Below are positions 2,689 through 7,402 of a DNA stretch of 7,402 nt, one piece after another. Both the position numbers and the translations under genes were made by a program. The notes below the pieces were generated by a model. It was not told the DNA's origin. It saw only the letters and a list, made by a program, of their open reading frames with translations, and searched no databases. The DNA is from Anaerolineales bacterium (GTDB taxonomy: Bacteria > Chloroflexota > Anaerolineae > 4572-78 > NAK82), in assembly GCA_024643945.1 (NCBI GenBank), contig JAHELX010000078.1, forward strand, positions 7,609 to 15,010. The letters run 5' to 3'. Each line of letters begins with the position of its first letter. The stretch's first letter is position 1.

Positions 2689-2709
2689 ATGCGGATTTGT
2701 AAAAGATGA
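2689..2709 (+). CDS. possible six-codon leader peptide (MRICKR) overlapping the PBP start
   Basis: An ATG at 2689 opens a six-codon frame, MRICKR, whose TGA at 2707-2709 overlaps the PBP ATG at 2706 as ATGA. AGGA at 2675-2678 lies 10 nt before this ATG. The PBP ATG has no Shine-Dalgarno at a usable distance (the preceding bases are ATTTGTAAAAG), and an in-frame TAA at 2700-2702 rules out an upstream PBP start. The simplest reading is that ribosomes load on the small frame and reinitiate on the PBP. It may also be chance: a six-codon frame is cheap, and GC-rich bacteria use some SD-less starts. Confidence 0.3.
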   Translation: MRICKR

Positions 2710-5700
2710 GCGAATCACCTACCGACCCCGGTCCTCTGCTACCTGGCGAGCCTGGATCTGGCCGGTCCAATTCAGATAAGGACGACACCCGGCCACAACG
2801 TCCCCAGACTCCGCCTCCTTACTGGCGGTCCGACGCCCCAACGCAAAGCGGCGGCCAGAGACAACCGGCGGCGCCCCCGCCCGATTCTGCCAGCCAGACG
2901 CGGCGCTCTGCCGGCCCACTTCCTGGGCAACCGGGCAGTGCCCCGCCCCCACCGCCGCCCGGCAACTACCCCGGCGCCATGCGGGGCCAGAGCACGCGCA
3001 GGTCTTCCTCAGCCCCGCGCCGCCCTCACCAGCAGGTCAGCCTGGGGCAGTGGCTGCTGCGCGGCTTCATCGTGGCGGCGATGGCTATCGTGGCTCTGTC
3101 GCTGCTGATCATTGTCGGCGGCGTGGCCGGATACTTTTACATCGCGGCTGAGTTGCCCTCCCCCGAGGAGCTGCAAAATCGGGCCTTCACCTTCGCCAGC
3201 AGCCAGATTTACGACCGGAATGGGAACCTGTTGTGGGAGTTGATGGACCCGTCGGCGGGGCGGCGCACCTGGGTGCCCCTCAGCCGGGTCTCCCCGTACT
3301 TGCAGCAGGCAACCATCGCCACCGAAGATCGCTTCTTCTATCAGAACGTCGGCGTGGACCCTATCGCCGTCGTCCGCGCCCTTTATTACAACCTCAGCGA
3401 GGGTGAGATTGTCTCCGGCGGCAGCACCATCACCCAGCAACTGGCGCGCACTGTGCTGCTCACTCCCGAAGAGCAATCCGAGAAGACTCTTTCGCGCAAA
3501 ATCCGCGAGGCAGTGCTGGCGGTGGAGCTCGCCCGCCGCTACCCCAAAGACAAAATCCTGGAGATTTACCTCAATCAGATTTATTACGGCAACCTGGCGT
3601 ATGGCATCGAGGCCGCCAGCCAGACCTACTTTGGCAAGCCGGCGACCGACCTGACGCTGGCCGAAGCGGCCTTGCTGGCCGGCCTGCCCCAGTCGCCGGC
3701 TCTGTATGACCCCTTCGCCAATCCCGAAGTGGCCAAGGCCCGCCAGCAGGTGGTGCTCAACCTGATGGTCGAGGCGGGCAACATCACCCCGGCCCAGGCG
3801 GTCGCTGCTTACCAGGAGGAGCTCCAGTACGCTCCGCAGCGCGCCGCGTTTGCCGCGCCTCACTTCGTGACCTACGTCCGCCAGTTGCTCGAAGCTCGCT
3901 ACGAACCCCACCTGCTTTACCAGGCGGGGCTGCGCGTGCAAACCACTCTGGATCCGCGCATCCAGGCCATCGCCGAAGAGGAAGTGGTCAAACAGATCAA
4001 TGCGCTGCAGGGCAAGAATGCCACCAACGGTGCGGTGGTAGTGCTCAACGTCAAGACGGGCGAGATCCTGGCCATGGTCGGCAGCAAGGATTTCAACGAC
4101 GAGAACATCGACGGCCAGGTGAACGTCACCCTACGACCGCGCCAGCCTGGCTCGGCCATCAAGCCGCTGACCTACCTGGCCGCCTTCGAGCAGGGTTGGA
4201 CGCCAGCGACCTTGGTTATGGACGTGCCGGTGGAATACCCGGATGGAGCGGGGGGCATCTACCGGCCGTCCAACTATGACGGGAAGTTCCATGGTCCCGT
4301 GCTGTTGCGAAATGCGTTGGCCAATTCGTATAACGTCCCGGCAGTCAAAACACTGGAGTTCATCGGTGTCCCGGCTTTGAAAGAGATGGCCAGACGCCTG
4401 GGCATCACTACCCTCACCCGCGAGGACTACGGCCTGTCGCTGACCCTGGGGGGCGGCGAGGTGACGTTGCTGGAGATGGCCGGTGCCTACCAGGCTATGG
4501 CCGATGGCGGTCTGCGCGTGCCGCCCGTTGCCATTTTGCGCGTCACCGACAACTTTGGGCGGGTGATCGACGAATATCACCCGCCGCAAGGAACGCGCGT
4601 GCTGCGCGCCGAGCACGCCTACCTGATTACTCACATCCTGGCCGACAACCAGGCGCGTACGCCTGCTTTTGGCCCCAACAGCGTGCTCAAGCTGTCGAGA
4701 CCGGCCGCGGTCAAGACGGGCACCACCAACGACTTCCGCGACGATTGGACGCTAGGCTATACGCCTGACATCGTGGTGGGCGTGTGGGTGGGCAATTCGG
4801 ATAACAGCAAGATGCAGGGCGTGAGCGGCGTCAGCGGTGCCGGCCCCATCTGGCACAACGTGATGGAACGAGCCCTGGAAGGGGTGCCGGTGCGCGACTT
4901 CATCCGCCCGCCGACCATCGTCGAGATGGAGATCTGCGCCGACTCAGGCACCACCCCCAGCCCAGTCTGTCCGCGCCGGGCGACTGAGATTTTCGCCCAG
5001 GATCAGCCCCCGCTGGGCCCGGAACACGATATTCACCAGATGGTGCGCCTTGATACCCGGGCCAACTGTATCGCCCACGAGTTTACTCCGCCCAATGTGG
5101 TGATCGAGCGTTACTTCCAGGTGTATCCGCCCGACGGGCGGGAATGGGCCCTCGAGCATGGCATCGAGCAACCCCCCGACCCCTGTCCGGAGCCGGCCGG
5201 CGCGGCCCAGGCGCTCATCACCTGGCCGGCCGATGGCCAGACGGTGGAGGGCGTCATTACCATTGAGGGTGTGGCGCTGGCCGCCAATTTCTCCCACTAC
5301 CTGGTCGAATACGGCGTAAGCTGGGGACCACAGGCTTTCGGCCCGGTGGCCGGCCCTATCAACCAGTTGGTGGAAGGAGGGCCGCTGGCCGAATGGGACA
5401 CCCGGGAGCAGCCCAACGGACCCTACACCCTGCGCGTGGTCGTCTTCGACCAGGCGGGCGGCGCTTACGAGGGGCGGGTCACTATTCTCATTGACAACCC
5501 GCCACCCACGCCGACCGACACGGCTACCCCCGCGCCGGTCACCGATACGCCGACGCCTGTACCCGCGACGGATACCCCAACGCCTGTACCGCCGACCGAC
5601 ACGCCCACGCCGGAACCGGCGACGGATACGCCTACGCTGGAACCGGCGACTGACACACCTACGCTGGAACCCGCCACCCATACACCCACTTCAGAACCAG

Positions 5701-5846
5701 CGACCAGCACGCCAACTGGCACGCCAACGCCCAATCCGCCGACTAACACGCCAACACCTACGCCTTCTCCCACTGGCGCTCCGGCGCCCACGCCGACACC
5801 AGGTGCGTCACCATCGCCGGCTGCCACCGGTACACCAGCCGGTTAG
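2706..5846 (+). CDS. class A penicillin-binding protein (GT51 transglycosylase / transpeptidase) with Ig-like domain and Thr-Pro tail
   Basis: This is a 1046-residue bifunctional peptidoglycan synthase that polymerises lipid II and cross-links stem peptides at the outer face of the membrane. Residues 1-115 are a Pro-rich, presumably cytoplasmic tail. A membrane segment lies at about 120-146. The GT51 domain (about 165-345) shows ATEDRFF with catalytic Glu207, GGSTITQQ (238-245), RKIREA with the probable second Glu268, and ILEIYLNQIYYG (284-295). The transpeptidase domain (about 440-725) has Ser483 in PGSAIKP, SYN at 541-543 and KTGTT at 670-674, so both activities look intact. Cys744 and Cys755 follow (CADSGTTPSPVC). 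Residues about 836-931 resemble a bacterial Ig-like domain, and 932-1046 is a Thr-Pro repeat tail. The protein is longer than the 700-850 residues usual for the family because of both tails. ATG 2706 is the only sensible start, given the in-frame TAA at 2700. It is transcribed alone from the promoter at 2621-2649. Confidence 0.97.
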   Translation: MSESPTDPGPLLPGEPGSGRSNSDKDDTRPQRPQTPPPYWRSDAPTQSGGQRQPAAPPPDSASQTRRSAGPLPGQPGSAPPPPPPGNYPGAMRGQSTRRSSSAPRRPHQQVSLGQWLLRGFIVAAMAIVALSLLIIVGGVAGYFYIAAELPSPEELQNRAFTFASSQIYDRNGNLLWELMDPSAGRRTWVPLSRVSPYLQQATIATEDRFFYQNVGVDPIAVVRALYYNLSEGEIVSGGSTITQQLARTVLLTPEEQSEKTLSRKIREAVLAVELARRYPKDKILEIYLNQIYYGNLAYGIEAASQTYFGKPATDLTLAEAALLAGLPQSPALYDPFANPEVAKARQQVVLNLMVEAGNITPAQAVAAYQEELQYAPQRAAFAAPHFVTYVRQLLEARYEPHLLYQAGLRVQTTLDPRIQAIAEEEVVKQINALQGKNATNGAVVVLNVKTGEILAMVGSKDFNDENIDGQVNVTLRPRQPGSAIKPLTYLAAFEQGWTPATLVMDVPVEYPDGAGGIYRPSNYDGKFHGPVLLRNALANSYNVPAVKTLEFIGVPALKEMARRLGITTLTREDYGLSLTLGGGEVTLLEMAGAYQAMADGGLRVPPVAILRVTDNFGRVIDEYHPPQGTRVLRAEHAYLITHILADNQARTPAFGPNSVLKLSRPAAVKTGTTNDFRDDWTLGYTPDIVVGVWVGNSDNSKMQGVSGVSGAGPIWHNVMERALEGVPVRDFIRPPTIVEMEICADSGTTPSPVCPRRATEIFAQDQPPLGPEHDIHQMVRLDTRANCIAHEFTPPNVVIERYFQVYPPDGREWALEHGIEQPPDPCPEPAGAAQALITWPADGQTVEGVITIEGVALAANFSHYLVEYGVSWGPQAFGPVAGPINQLVEGGPLAEWDTREQPNGPYTLRVVVFDQAGGAYEGRVTILIDNPPPTPTDTATPAPVTDTPTPVPATDTPTPVPPTDTPTPEPATDTPTLEPATDTPTLEPATHTPTSEPATSTPTGTPTPNPPTNTPTPTPSPTGAPAPTPTPGASPSPAATGTPAG
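5538..5726 (+). repeat. seven 27-bp coding repeats (nonapeptide ATDTPTPxP) in the PBP tail
   Basis: Seven consecutive nine-residue units cover PBP residues 945-1007: VTDTPTPVP, ATDTPTPVP, PTDTPTPEP, two of ATDTPTLEP, ATHTPTSEP and ATSTPTGTP. Irregular TPTP sequence follows to the end. Codons vary between units, so the array is old or selected at protein level rather than a fresh duplication. Such Thr-Pro tracts act as extended, often glycosylated spacers in cell-surface proteins. The units could still change in number by slippage. Confidence 0.85.
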
Positions 5847-5910: not shown

Positions 5911-5940
5911 TTGCCATTCCTGCCTAATCTGTGATAAACT
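5911..5940 (+). promoter_or_regulatory. candidate promoter for the TIR-LSDAT operon
   Basis: TTGCCA at 5911-5916 (five of six) and TAAACT at 5935-5940 (four of six) have an 18-bp spacer, with TG at 5932-5933 forming an extended -10. Transcription would begin near 5947, upstream of the ATG at 5979. It immediately follows the GC-rich stem-loop, which fits a new transcription unit starting there. Weaker than the two promoters in the divergent region. Confidence 0.4.
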
Positions 5941-5978: not shown

Positions 5979-7049
5979 ATGGGGCAGATGCGCATATTCG
6001 TCTCCAATCTCAGGCGAAAGGGGCGGAATTGTGTGTCTCCGTCCCCAGCCGGGTACAGAGGGAGGAAACCAATCGACCCGCGCCATTTGCTGGTGTATGT
6101 GAGTTGGGATGTCATCCGTCGCTGGAAGCGGGGGCGTCGCCCCGACCGTCCGGTCGTTGCCGAGGCCCCTTACGCCTACGGCAGCGCGCAGATTCGCCTG
6201 GCTCGCCTGGCCCGGCCAGGGGACGTGATATGGGTACTGACCGCGCCTCGCTTTGCCGGATACCGGCTGCCCCCTTCTCTTATCGCCCGCCTGCAGGTGG
6301 CCCAGGTAGTGGATCGCCAGACGCCTGACGGTCTCGCGGCGGCCATCCCCCCGGACTTCGATCCCCGCTGGCGCTACGTCGTCCTGGCTGAACCACCACC
6401 TGCCAGTCGCTATTATCCTCTCAACAATGCCTACCAGACTCTGCTCGCGTTGACTTTCGTCGGTCGCGCGCCGACGTTGCGCGATTGCCCCCACTGCCAG
6501 CGGCTGGTAGCCGAGCAGAAGAGATTGTACGCCGGCCTGCCCGCCCACCTGCAAACGGTGCGCCATCTGACACCCGGTGCGGGGGCGGCGCTGGAGGCCT
6601 TCGCTCGCGCCGTGGCTGAAGGGCAGATAGTCTTTCTCAGCTACCGGCGGGCAGAAGCAGCTCCGCTGGCCATGGCGCTGGCGGAGCGGTTGACCGGTCA
6701 GGGCGTCGCTTGCTGGTGGGATCACTGGATGGTTCCTGGGCGCGTGGCGCGGGGGGACATCCAGATAGATAACGATTTGCTGTCGGCGGTACTGGCCGAT
6801 GGTTTGCGACAGAGTACCTGGGCTGTGGCATTGGTGACGCCTACCTTCTATAGGAGCCGATGGACGGCACGGGAGTGGACGTTAGCCGGGGAAGAGAGAG
6901 ATAACCCGCGCCGCGCCCGCCCCTTGCGGCGGATCGAGGTGCTCCTGGAGGGTGAGGCCAGCGGCCAAGCGGATGTGGTGCTCCCGGCCACCAACGTTGA
7001 CCCCAACCGGTTGGCGGCTCAATTGTTGGCCGCTATAGAGGAGGCATGA
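5979..7049 (+). CDS. TIR-domain protein with an unrecognised N-terminal domain
   Basis: The frame is open from GTG 5931. ATG 5979 is chosen because GGGAGG (5963-5968) lies 10 nt upstream, giving 356 residues. ATG 5988 is an alternative, and conserved-looking sequence begins only at about 6087 (LLVYVSWDVIRRW). The C-terminal part, coded by 6621-7046, is a TIR domain: IVFLSYRR at the first strand, LAERLTGQGVACWWDHW for helix A and the second strand, then an amphipathic helix, WAVALVTPTFYRSRW, and WTARE. The Glu of WTARE (coded at 6873-6875) aligns with the catalytic Glu of NAD+-cleaving TIR domains such as SARM1 (WVHKE), so NADase activity is plausible. The N-terminal domain has GDVIWVLTAPRF, PPSLIARLQVAQVVD, YYPLNNAYQTLLALTF and a CPHC motif (6486-6497). 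I cannot name it; it may be the sensor. The stop codon overlaps the next gene, indicating one operon. TIR assignment is strong; the biochemical product is inferred. Confidence 0.88.
   Translation: MGQMRIFVSNLRRKGRNCVSPSPAGYRGRKPIDPRHLLVYVSWDVIRRWKRGRRPDRPVVAEAPYAYGSAQIRLARLARPGDVIWVLTAPRFAGYRLPPSLIARLQVAQVVDRQTPDGLAAAIPPDFDPRWRYVVLAEPPPASRYYPLNNAYQTLLALTFVGRAPTLRDCPHCQRLVAEQKRLYAGLPAHLQTVRHLTPGAGAALEAFARAVAEGQIVFLSYRRAEAAPLAMALAERLTGQGVACWWDHWMVPGRVARGDIQIDNDLLSAVLADGLRQSTWAVALVTPTFYRSRWTAREWTLAGEERDNPRRARPLRRIEVLLEGEASGQADVVLPATNVDPNRLAAQLLAAIEEA
6057..6068 (+). promoter_or_regulatory. strong Shine-Dalgarno-like sequence inside the TIR reading frame
   Basis: AGAGGGAGGAAA is the best ribosome-binding match near the gene, but no ATG, GTG or TTG follows at normal distance. 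The in-frame codon at 6072, 6 nt after GGAGG, is ATC. The next usable in-frame starts are TTG 6087 and GTG 6093, both too far. The homologous-looking part of the protein begins right here. Either the gene starts upstream and this is coding sequence, or translation starts at a non-canonical ATC. Confidence 0.25.
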
Positions 7050-7402
7050 TGGCCCAGCAACCGGAGACGCTGACCTTTCCCGGCGGCCATGCCGCCCGCC
7101 TGGCCCGCATCGCTGACCTGGATGGGCTGCCGGACGCCCTGGCCGCGCTGGCCCTGGCCCCGCCCTGGCCGGTCCTGGTCCTGGTGGGTGGGGCGGCGGG
7201 CTTGTCGCTGGCGGGAGAGGCTGCCTCGCCCTTAAAAGAATTGTTCCACGCGCTGGCCGGAGTGGCGCAGGCGGCCGGCGCGACGGTCGTGGACGGCGGT
7301 ACTAACGCCGGCGTGATGGCCTTAATGGGCCAGGCCCGCGCCGAAGTTGGGGCTACCTTTCCGCTGCTGGGCGTAGCTGCCGAAGGGACGGTAGACCTCA
7401 CC
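7049..7402 (+). CDS. SLOG-superfamily LSDAT (TRPM-like) nucleotide-binding protein (3' end beyond window)
   Basis: The first 118 codons are visible. ATG 7049 lies 4 nt after AGGAGG (7039-7044) and shares one base with the TIR stop codon. ATG 7046 in the same frame would overlap by 4 nt but sits only 1 nt from AGGAGG. After a short N-terminal segment comes a Rossmann-like core: PVLVLVGGAAGLS (residues 41-53), a helix with PLKELFHALAGVAQAAGA, then VVDGGTNAGVMALMGQAR (80-97) and FPLLGVAAEGTV (104-115). The paired GG loop and DGGTxxGVMxLMG motif match the prokaryotic LSDAT family, the SLOG branch related to the ligand-binding region of TRPM channels, predicted to bind NAD+-derived or similar nucleotides. 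Coupling to a TIR gene suggests it senses or processes the TIR product. Any effector or membrane domain would be C-terminal, outside the window. Confidence in the fold is good; the ligand is inferred. Confidence 0.82.
   Translation, partial: MAQQPETLTFPGGHAARLARIADLDGLPDALAALALAPPWPVLVLVGGAAGLSLAGEAASPLKELFHALAGVAQAAGATVVDGGTNAGVMALMGQARAEVGATFPLLGVAAEGTVDLT

Follow-up and report, generated by a model that had tools for sequence, protein, structure and literature searches.

In the described systems closest to the locus reported here, a TIR protein is coupled to an effector or an EVE domain is fused to a nuclease. Precedents within Thoeris, as set out in the accessible portion of PMC11204291, lead from TIR proteins to SIR2-SLOG effectors and to transmembrane (TM)-macro effectors, and an excerpt of the review PMC12948488 describes a TIR product acting on the membrane effector of Thoeris type II. 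SLATT proteins have been predicted to be pores that respond to nucleotide signals (PMC7159879, in part) and, in the available section of PMC9503650, to be membrane effectors that are regulated by ADP-ribose derivatives and adjoin TIR genes in phages. On the nuclease side, VcaM4I uses its EVE domain to flip and read modified cytosine, and EVE-HNH enzymes are modification-dependent restriction enzymes (PMC7897488, in part); an extract of PMC7641849 places them, as putative enzymes of that kind, among several EVE-nuclease fusions, and the whole word "TIR" is absent from the main text of that paper as available. Here, we describe a 7402-base stretch of an Anaerolineales contig ("the window") in which the gene for a TIR protein with an EVE-like N-terminal domain runs directly into a gene for an LSDAT protein, a TRPM-type member of the SLOG families. 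The parts are known; the gene pair suggests a new variant of bacterial immune signaling. The combination of EVE-like–TIR and LSDAT was not found in the literature searched, a search outside which most subscription journals lie.

The most economical reading, we infer, is a chain of sensor (EVE-like), synthase (TIR), receptor (LSDAT) and pore (a two-TM, or 2TM, protein that is unseen). The EVE-like domain would sense nucleic acid that is foreign or chemically altered, its probable role on HNH nucleases as well, and sensing would trigger the TIR domain to convert NAD+ to an ADP-ribose-type messenger. The LSDAT protein would bind this messenger, as the homologous region of TRPM2 binds ADP-ribose, and would act through a 2TM DUF4231/SLATT or 8xMP effector, perhaps encoded just past the contig end, that would permeabilize the membrane and stop infection. 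That EVE-like–TIR, LSDAT and a 2TM effector form a signaling module of the abortive-infection type is our tentative preference, held at somewhat less than an even chance. The fuller proposal, an undescribed immune circuit running from an EVE-like reader of modified nucleic acid through a TIR synthase to a TRPM-type LSDAT that gates a SLATT-family pore, all in one operon and a bacterial counterpart of ADP-ribose-gated TRPM2, is rather unlikely.

The locus shares elements with each of the described systems and departs from each. Like Thoeris type I (ThsB TIR with ThsA SIR2-SLOG), it pairs a TIR protein with a SLOG-family protein, for which the proposed logic is that SLOG reads the TIR product; unlike type I, the SLOG-family protein belongs to the TRPM-type LSDAT clade, no SIR2 is seen, the TIR protein carries an EVE-like domain, and the likely partner is a 2TM protein instead of an NADase. 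Thoeris type II (ThsB TIR with ThsA TM-macro), in the partial accounts cited above, also routes a TIR product to a membrane effector via a ligand-binding domain, but that domain is macro in type II, whereas here it would be LSDAT, on a separate gene. The EVE-HNH restriction endonucleases of the VcaM4I type share a homologous N-terminal domain with an EVE/YTH-like model, and the window protein has TIR in place of their HNH catalytic domain. In TIR–SLATT neighborhoods (PMC9503650, in part), the partner of TIR is a 2TM SLATT effector, a coupling also seen in the Azospirillum relative described below; the visible partner here is instead LSDAT, which would add a receptor between TIR and pore. Finally, the N-terminal ligand-binding region of TRPM2 is a related LSDAT/SLOG domain, but it is fused to a TRP channel, whereas the domain here is prokaryotic and on a separate protein (in relatives, it can be fused to SLATT 2TM domains). 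If the proposed module is real, it would add a new kind of receptor to TIR signaling and would suggest that a sensor domain that we otherwise met on nucleases can set off a diffusible messenger instead. It would also offer a tractable bacterial system for studying the reading of ADP-ribose signals and the gating of membranes by TRPM-type domains.

The TIR and LSDAT genes

The TIR domain matched PF13676 (TIR_2) with an E value of 1.8e-11 and 45 bits (cut-off, 28), and the visible 119 residues of the downstream protein matched LSDAT_prok (PF18171) over profile positions 2-77 of 195 with an E value of 1.9e-22 and 80 bits (cut-off, 25.4). These matches bear out both identities given in a preliminary description of this DNA. 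The sequence features that it had named are also present: the TIR stop and LSDAT start codons overlap (in an ATGA at 7046-7049, which lies behind a GAGGAGG), and the glutamate of the TIR motif WTARE (W at 6861, E at 6873) is kept. W, T and E of this W-T-x-x-E motif were invariant in 18 of 18 aligned sequences, the window included, and the glutamate aligned with that of WTNYE in the NADase AbTIR, which we take to be the catalytic residue of that enzyme. By alignment, the TIR protein is thus one that keeps the catalytic-position glutamate of TIR NADases; NAD+ cleavage is a prediction. A second ATG, at 7049, is an equally possible LSDAT start, with which the two genes would overlap by one base. 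In PADLOC, the window TIR protein gave weak TIR matches only, and there was no LSDAT match.

The start of the TIR gene differs from that first proposed. Thirteen of 16 relatives start at the residue matching position 6072, where the window has an ATC codon six bases after a GGAGG, and the other three have short, unrelated N-terminal extensions. The earlier start at 5979 was rejected, as the 31 residues 5' of 6072 are common to no relative; the open frame reaches 5' to 5931 and is not conserved there. The ATC at 6072 may be the true start or a sequence error.

LSDAT and SLATT were reportedly both defined by Burroughs in 2015. Searching PDB sequences with the window LSDAT (E up to 10) gave 27 rows, of which 27 were TRPM chains; the best was TRPM2 (E = 0.05), and none was significant alone. 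LSDAT_euk (PF18139) scored below its cut-off (E = 0.0015; 18.5 versus 25.7 bits). On these comparisons, the window LSDAT is related to LSDAT_euk and the TRPM MHR without being a member, which agrees with the TRPM relation proposed earlier; the MHR is the N-terminal ligand-binding region of TRPM2. Stand-alone LSDAT relatives in our survey were mostly 220 to 310 residues long, and since the gene is cut by the window end, the C terminus of the 119-residue visible copy and any following gene are out of view. In a tree of the visible LSDAT region (68 sequences, 112 columns, without support values), the window LSDAT grouped with metagenomic proteins, near L039 and L028, which are LSDAT-DUF4231 pairs, and also near the partnerless L089.

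LSDAT genes beside 2TM and TIR genes

To place the LSDAT protein among its relatives, the phylum and class were surveyed. At an E value of 0.001, PF18171 matched in 17 genomes of a 400-genome phylum sample (15 over the cut-off) and in 52 of a 392-genome class sample (48 over the cut-off). Flanks were fetched for 52 LSDAT loci, 47 strong and 5 weak; twelve weak places (E of 9e-6 or worse; 3 of the phylum scan, 9 of the class scan) were left out, and genes were called by a simple open reading frame (ORF) script. A 2TM partner of the DUF4231/SLATT or 8xMP type was found at 17 of the 47 strong loci, fused to LSDAT in 8 and adjacent in 9, with 4-base LSDAT/2TM overlaps at L039, L105 and L110. Six of the 17 partners were checked with Pfam, and L113 was counted though its frames overlap by 224 bases; the count is a lower bound because partners were sought with single-sequence seeds.

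TIR ORFs occurred at 11 of the 52 loci (9 strong, 2 weak), on the LSDAT strand in 9 of the 11. Thirteen such ORFs lay in 653 kb, versus 0.3 expected from a background of 111 matches in 60 class genomes (226.6 Mb, rounded sizes; some LSDAT loci came from the wider phylum sample). With TIR genes nearby, it becomes more plausible that a TIR product is what LSDAT reads. Because 2TM proteins are joined to LSDAT or lie next to it, and TIR genes recur in its vicinity, the prediction can be tested at other loci.

Several arrangements recurred. LSDAT was followed by TIR-EAD8-CHAT in three genomes, with a 4-base overlap in L120 and distances of 27 bases in L119 and 332 bases in L118, where EAD8 was below its cut-off. 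A same-strand order of LSDAT, 8xMP, a further gene and TIR was seen once in genome G193 (L030) and twice in genome G746 (L091 and L096). RelA/SpoT-TPR-LSDAT-RyR proteins with adjoining TIR proteins were present in two genomes (L122:3268-5757 and L123:5985-8474).

Some details of these loci are recorded as side observations. The TIR-EAD8-CHAT pairings (L118:6163-10295, L119:3586-7383 and L120:6598-10403) show another way of pairing TIR with LSDAT, here including a protease-like CHAT domain. The four-gene order in L030 and L096 is LSDAT, 8xMP, a HAD-type protein (Pfam-checked in L096 only) and TIR with Trans_reg_C, and the TIR of L030 is the sole PF13676 match in genome G193. In L032, L034 and L035, from three genomes, LSDAT lies 3' of the same four-gene row (judged by length and N terminus), with no TIR or 2TM partner. 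Among plasmids, the L028 LSDAT as query found LSDAT in 4 records, and the window LSDAT piece as query found no match; within the 6-kb flanks of three plasmid LSDATs (two Embleya, one Hymenobacter), our own profile found no TIR.

The N-terminal domain of the TIR protein

Genome searches with the TIR family also returned an HNH endonuclease (L005/L044, P0041) that matched the N-terminal part only. A profile of that part listed 70 proteins, of which 60 carry an HNH domain; the list is not an independent test, because P0041 was in the query. When 18 TIR rows were compared by hhalign with 61 HNH-side rows, themselves chosen by a mixed TIR/HNH profile, the alignment spanned 144 columns at 25% identity with a probability of 96.8 and an E value of 2.2e-10 for the one comparison. 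On this profile evidence, the N-terminal domain of the TIR protein is homologous to the N terminus of HNH endonucleases. The preliminary description had the TIR fused to an unnamed N-terminal domain; this domain also occurs in HNH endonucleases and is EVE-like. A short Rhodococcus opacus protein (P0072) also carries it.

A first structure model, built from the 18 TIR sequences, was dropped, its N-terminal half being unreliable (blocks of about 30 to 58). The best mean pLDDT (model confidence) rose from 60.6 to 82.0 after 42 HNH relatives were added (60 rows), and the N-terminal blocks of that best model scored mostly 66 to 92, with two weak blocks (62 and 56) at residues 141-160. Foldseek with the 60-row model ranked 2p5d second (E = 3.1e-4; TMt, 0.63; rmsd, 6.7; aligned model range not printed) and 4u8t, a YTH domain in complex with m6A RNA, thirteenth (E = 1.3e-3). 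MJECL36, the protein of 2p5d, is an EVE/DUF55 protein. The modeled N-terminal domain thus appears to resemble EVE/YTH nucleic-acid readers, and we named it EVE-like. The lack of an EVE row in VIA-align says nothing on this point because the rows shown cover mainly residues 183-325, the TIR half.

At residues 139-159 (window 6486-6548), the TIR family invariably has C139, H141 and C142 in a C-x-H-C motif, together with H159; the cysteines are missing from the HNH relatives shown. The four residues are possibly a small metal site that sits between the EVE-like and TIR domains.

Distribution of the TIR family

The search that gave the 16 TIR relatives scored only the 7,996 candidates that had the most words in common with the query. 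Full-length members are rare: among 400 genomes of the phylum, 56 of the order and 396 of the class, samples that overlap and comprise roughly 750 distinct genomes, the only one found was G001/L001 (Chloroflexi UBA11865). Order scans scored all candidates; phylum and class scans scored at most five per genome, and members may for this reason have been missed. No member was found in 25 genomes of the order nearest to the HerA-like gene of the window. Neither the TIR family, nor one N-terminal piece, nor LSDAT had a match in viral contigs, and phages had none for the TIR family or LSDAT; in plasmids, an Azospirillum protein was the sole TIR-family match, and P0057 as query gave none.

The L001 TIR protein was 47% identical to that of the window over its length and 50% in the best segment. 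Its gene has as 3' neighbor a convergent gene that by eye is gamma-Glu-GABA hydrolase-like. On another contig of the same genome, a TIR-like ORF piece (E = 2.9e-5, own profile) lies 84 bases 3' of an LSDAT-DUF4231-SLATT_1 fusion; a PF13676 search of the genome did not list this piece. As a side observation, a small hydrophobic, probably membrane protein of 130 residues (L001:973-1365) is encoded on the same strand as the L001 TIR gene, 48 bases 5' of it.

The Azospirillum plasmid protein is a distant relative, with 27% identity over 82% of P0003; in a two-sequence search, it matched clearly in the TIR part (E = 5.4e-21) and weakly, though in collinear order, in the N-terminal part (E = 2e-4). 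Directly 5' of this EVE-like–TIR gene, on the same strand, is a DUF4231–SLATT_1 gene. The annotated TIR start lies 188 bases past the SLATT stop, but the open frame extends back to a TTG with a 4-base overlap with that stop. The longer frame has, at residues 42-46, a motif like the H-L-L-V-Y of the family, so no more than about 120 bases truly separate SLATT and TIR. The plasmid, typed as mobilizable, carries PAS, CHAT, pentapeptide-repeat, DUF4231-SLATT and TIR genes in a same-strand row (L002:458-8960).

Points against the proposed module and alternative explanations

A number of observations weigh against the proposed module. L001, the only near relative with context, has no LSDAT in its 3.1-kb contig, and the window is the only locus with this TIR family beside LSDAT. 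A conserved LSDAT neighbor, for which the preliminary description proposed to survey homologous TIR genes, was not seen beside this one relative, and the case for a TIR-LSDAT pairing conserved within this TIR family is thin. The gene 3' of the window LSDAT lies beyond the contig end. No defense island is present in the window, where the neighbors of TIR and LSDAT are a class A penicillin-binding protein and a HerA-like ATPase. For the N-terminal domain, the five 60-row models reached mean pLDDT values of 82.0, 80.4, 66.0, 60.5 and 59.8, three of them at or below 66; PF01878 (EVE) had no match in the window protein and matched 1 of 60 HNH relatives (E = 0.081); and the N-terminal profile gave six chance-level rows against PDB sequences, with no EVE or YTH protein. 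The TIR enrichment shrinks against the TIR-richest genome (26 in 5.1 Mb), whose density would give 3.3 TIR by chance. Furthermore, these loci supplied part of the training set of the TIR profile; Pfam confirmed 9 of the 11 loci and 10 of the 13 ORFs, and TIR at L039 and L042 is supported by our own profile only. By our own profiles, 27 of the 47 strong and 3 of the 5 weak LSDAT loci had neither a TIR nor a 2TM partner, so LSDAT has other roles too and is not by itself a mark of TIR signaling. At least nine of the partnerless strong loci adjoin a MutY-like gene (named by eye), and these LSDATs are perhaps a separate, housekeeping lineage. The MutY-like glycosylase neighbors, recognized by eye from the N terminus, are at L037, L094, L097, L099, L100, L102, L106, L112 and L114.

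Single TIR proteins that act by depleting NAD are well established. The lack of LSDAT beside the L001 TIR gene and the 27 partnerless strong loci would fit an EVE-like–TIR protein that works alone, sensing invader nucleic acid and killing by NAD+ depletion, with the LSDAT an operon neighbor in a separate, perhaps metabolic, nucleotide-binding role. This explanation is somewhat unlikely in our view: it is at odds with the ATGA overlap and its embedded ribosome-binding-like site, with the TIR ORFs at 11 of 52 LSDAT loci and with the Azospirillum relative directly 3' of a SLATT gene.

An LSDAT that is an enzyme and not a receptor would cleave the messenger or NAD-derived nucleotides in a LOG-like reaction, switching off or further processing the TIR signal. 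SLOG proteins include N-glycosidases, and viral SLOG domains have been proposed to cleave cyclic ADP-ribose in the available part of PMC9503650. The stretch VVDGGT, invariant in 11 aligned LSDATs, and the 27 strong LSDATs that have neither membrane partner nor TIR would be consistent with such a role, which we nevertheless judge improbable, as fusion to and overlap with 2TM proteins argue for sensing upstream of a pore. The TRPM relatives, moreover, are binding modules.

Relation to Thoeris

As far as the contig shows, and as the preliminary description stated, the locus is not classical Thoeris: no SIR2 of type I was found in the visible 119 residues of the LSDAT protein (gene and contig are cut at 7402), and no TM-macro effector of type II was found among the four window proteins scanned, in a view that ends at the same position. 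The window also has no visible SLATT/DUF4231 gene or domain. The nearest named TIR model, and the best NCBIfam match of the TIR protein, was Thoeris type III ThcB4 (NF058526; E = 7.8e-8), which also matched two TIR relatives (8.9e-13 and 2.2e-11) and the Azospirillum protein (1.2e-4). The match covers the TIR part only and, at 31.5 bits versus an equivalog cut-off of 220, is far under the level for ThcB4 membership.

A divergent Thoeris-type system, with a ThsB/ThcB-like TIR sensor and an effector past the contig end, would account for these ThcB4 matches, and the logic of a TIR product acting on a SLOG or membrane effector is that of SIR2-SLOG and TM-macro Thoeris (PMC11204291, in part). We consider it quite improbable, given the low ThcB4 score and its restriction to the TIR part, the lack of a visible SIR2 or macro domain, and the absence of any match to a Thoeris effector model among the proteins scanned, namely four LSDATs (including one fusion to SLATT), two SLATTs and an 8xMP, in a library whose coverage of such models is unchecked. 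The proposed EVE-like–TIR, LSDAT and 2TM module may still work as a Thoeris-type circuit; the tests run do not show it to be a Thoeris member.

Gene layout of the window

The window holds, in order, a HerA/DUF87-like ATPase gene, a class A penicillin-binding protein gene, the TIR gene and the start of the LSDAT gene (Table 1).

Table 1. Coordinates of features in the 7402-base window
Feature	Position	Strand	Basis or comment
HerA/DUF87-like ATPase gene	2-2503	minus	runs off left end of window
Class A penicillin-binding protein gene	2706-5846		between HerA-like and TIR genes
Possible sigma-70-like promoter 5' of TIR gene	5911..5940	+	single consensus match versus 0.2 expected in shuffles; weak
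GGAGG ribosome-binding-like site	6061..6065	+	6 nt 5' of conserved TIR start; read from sequence
EVE-like–TIR gene, 325 aa	6072..7049	+	16 homologues and alignments; conserved start is an ATC codon
N-terminal EVE/PUA-like domain	6072..6578	+	hhalign to HNH endonuclease N terminus, structure model, Foldseek
TIR domain	6624..7046	+	PF13676
Glu codon of WTARE	6873..6875	+	aligned with Glu of AbTIR WTNYE
GAGGAGG ribosome-binding-like site for LSDAT	7038..7044	+	within 3' end of TIR gene
ATGA, TIR stop/LSDAT start overlap	7046..7049	+	read from sequence
LSDAT (TRPM-type SLOG) gene	7046..7402	+	119 aa visible, runs off window; PF18171 and homologues

The penicillin-binding protein encoded just 5' of the TIR gene has Thr-Pro-rich C-terminal repeats (TDTPTPEPA-like; window 5508-5846).

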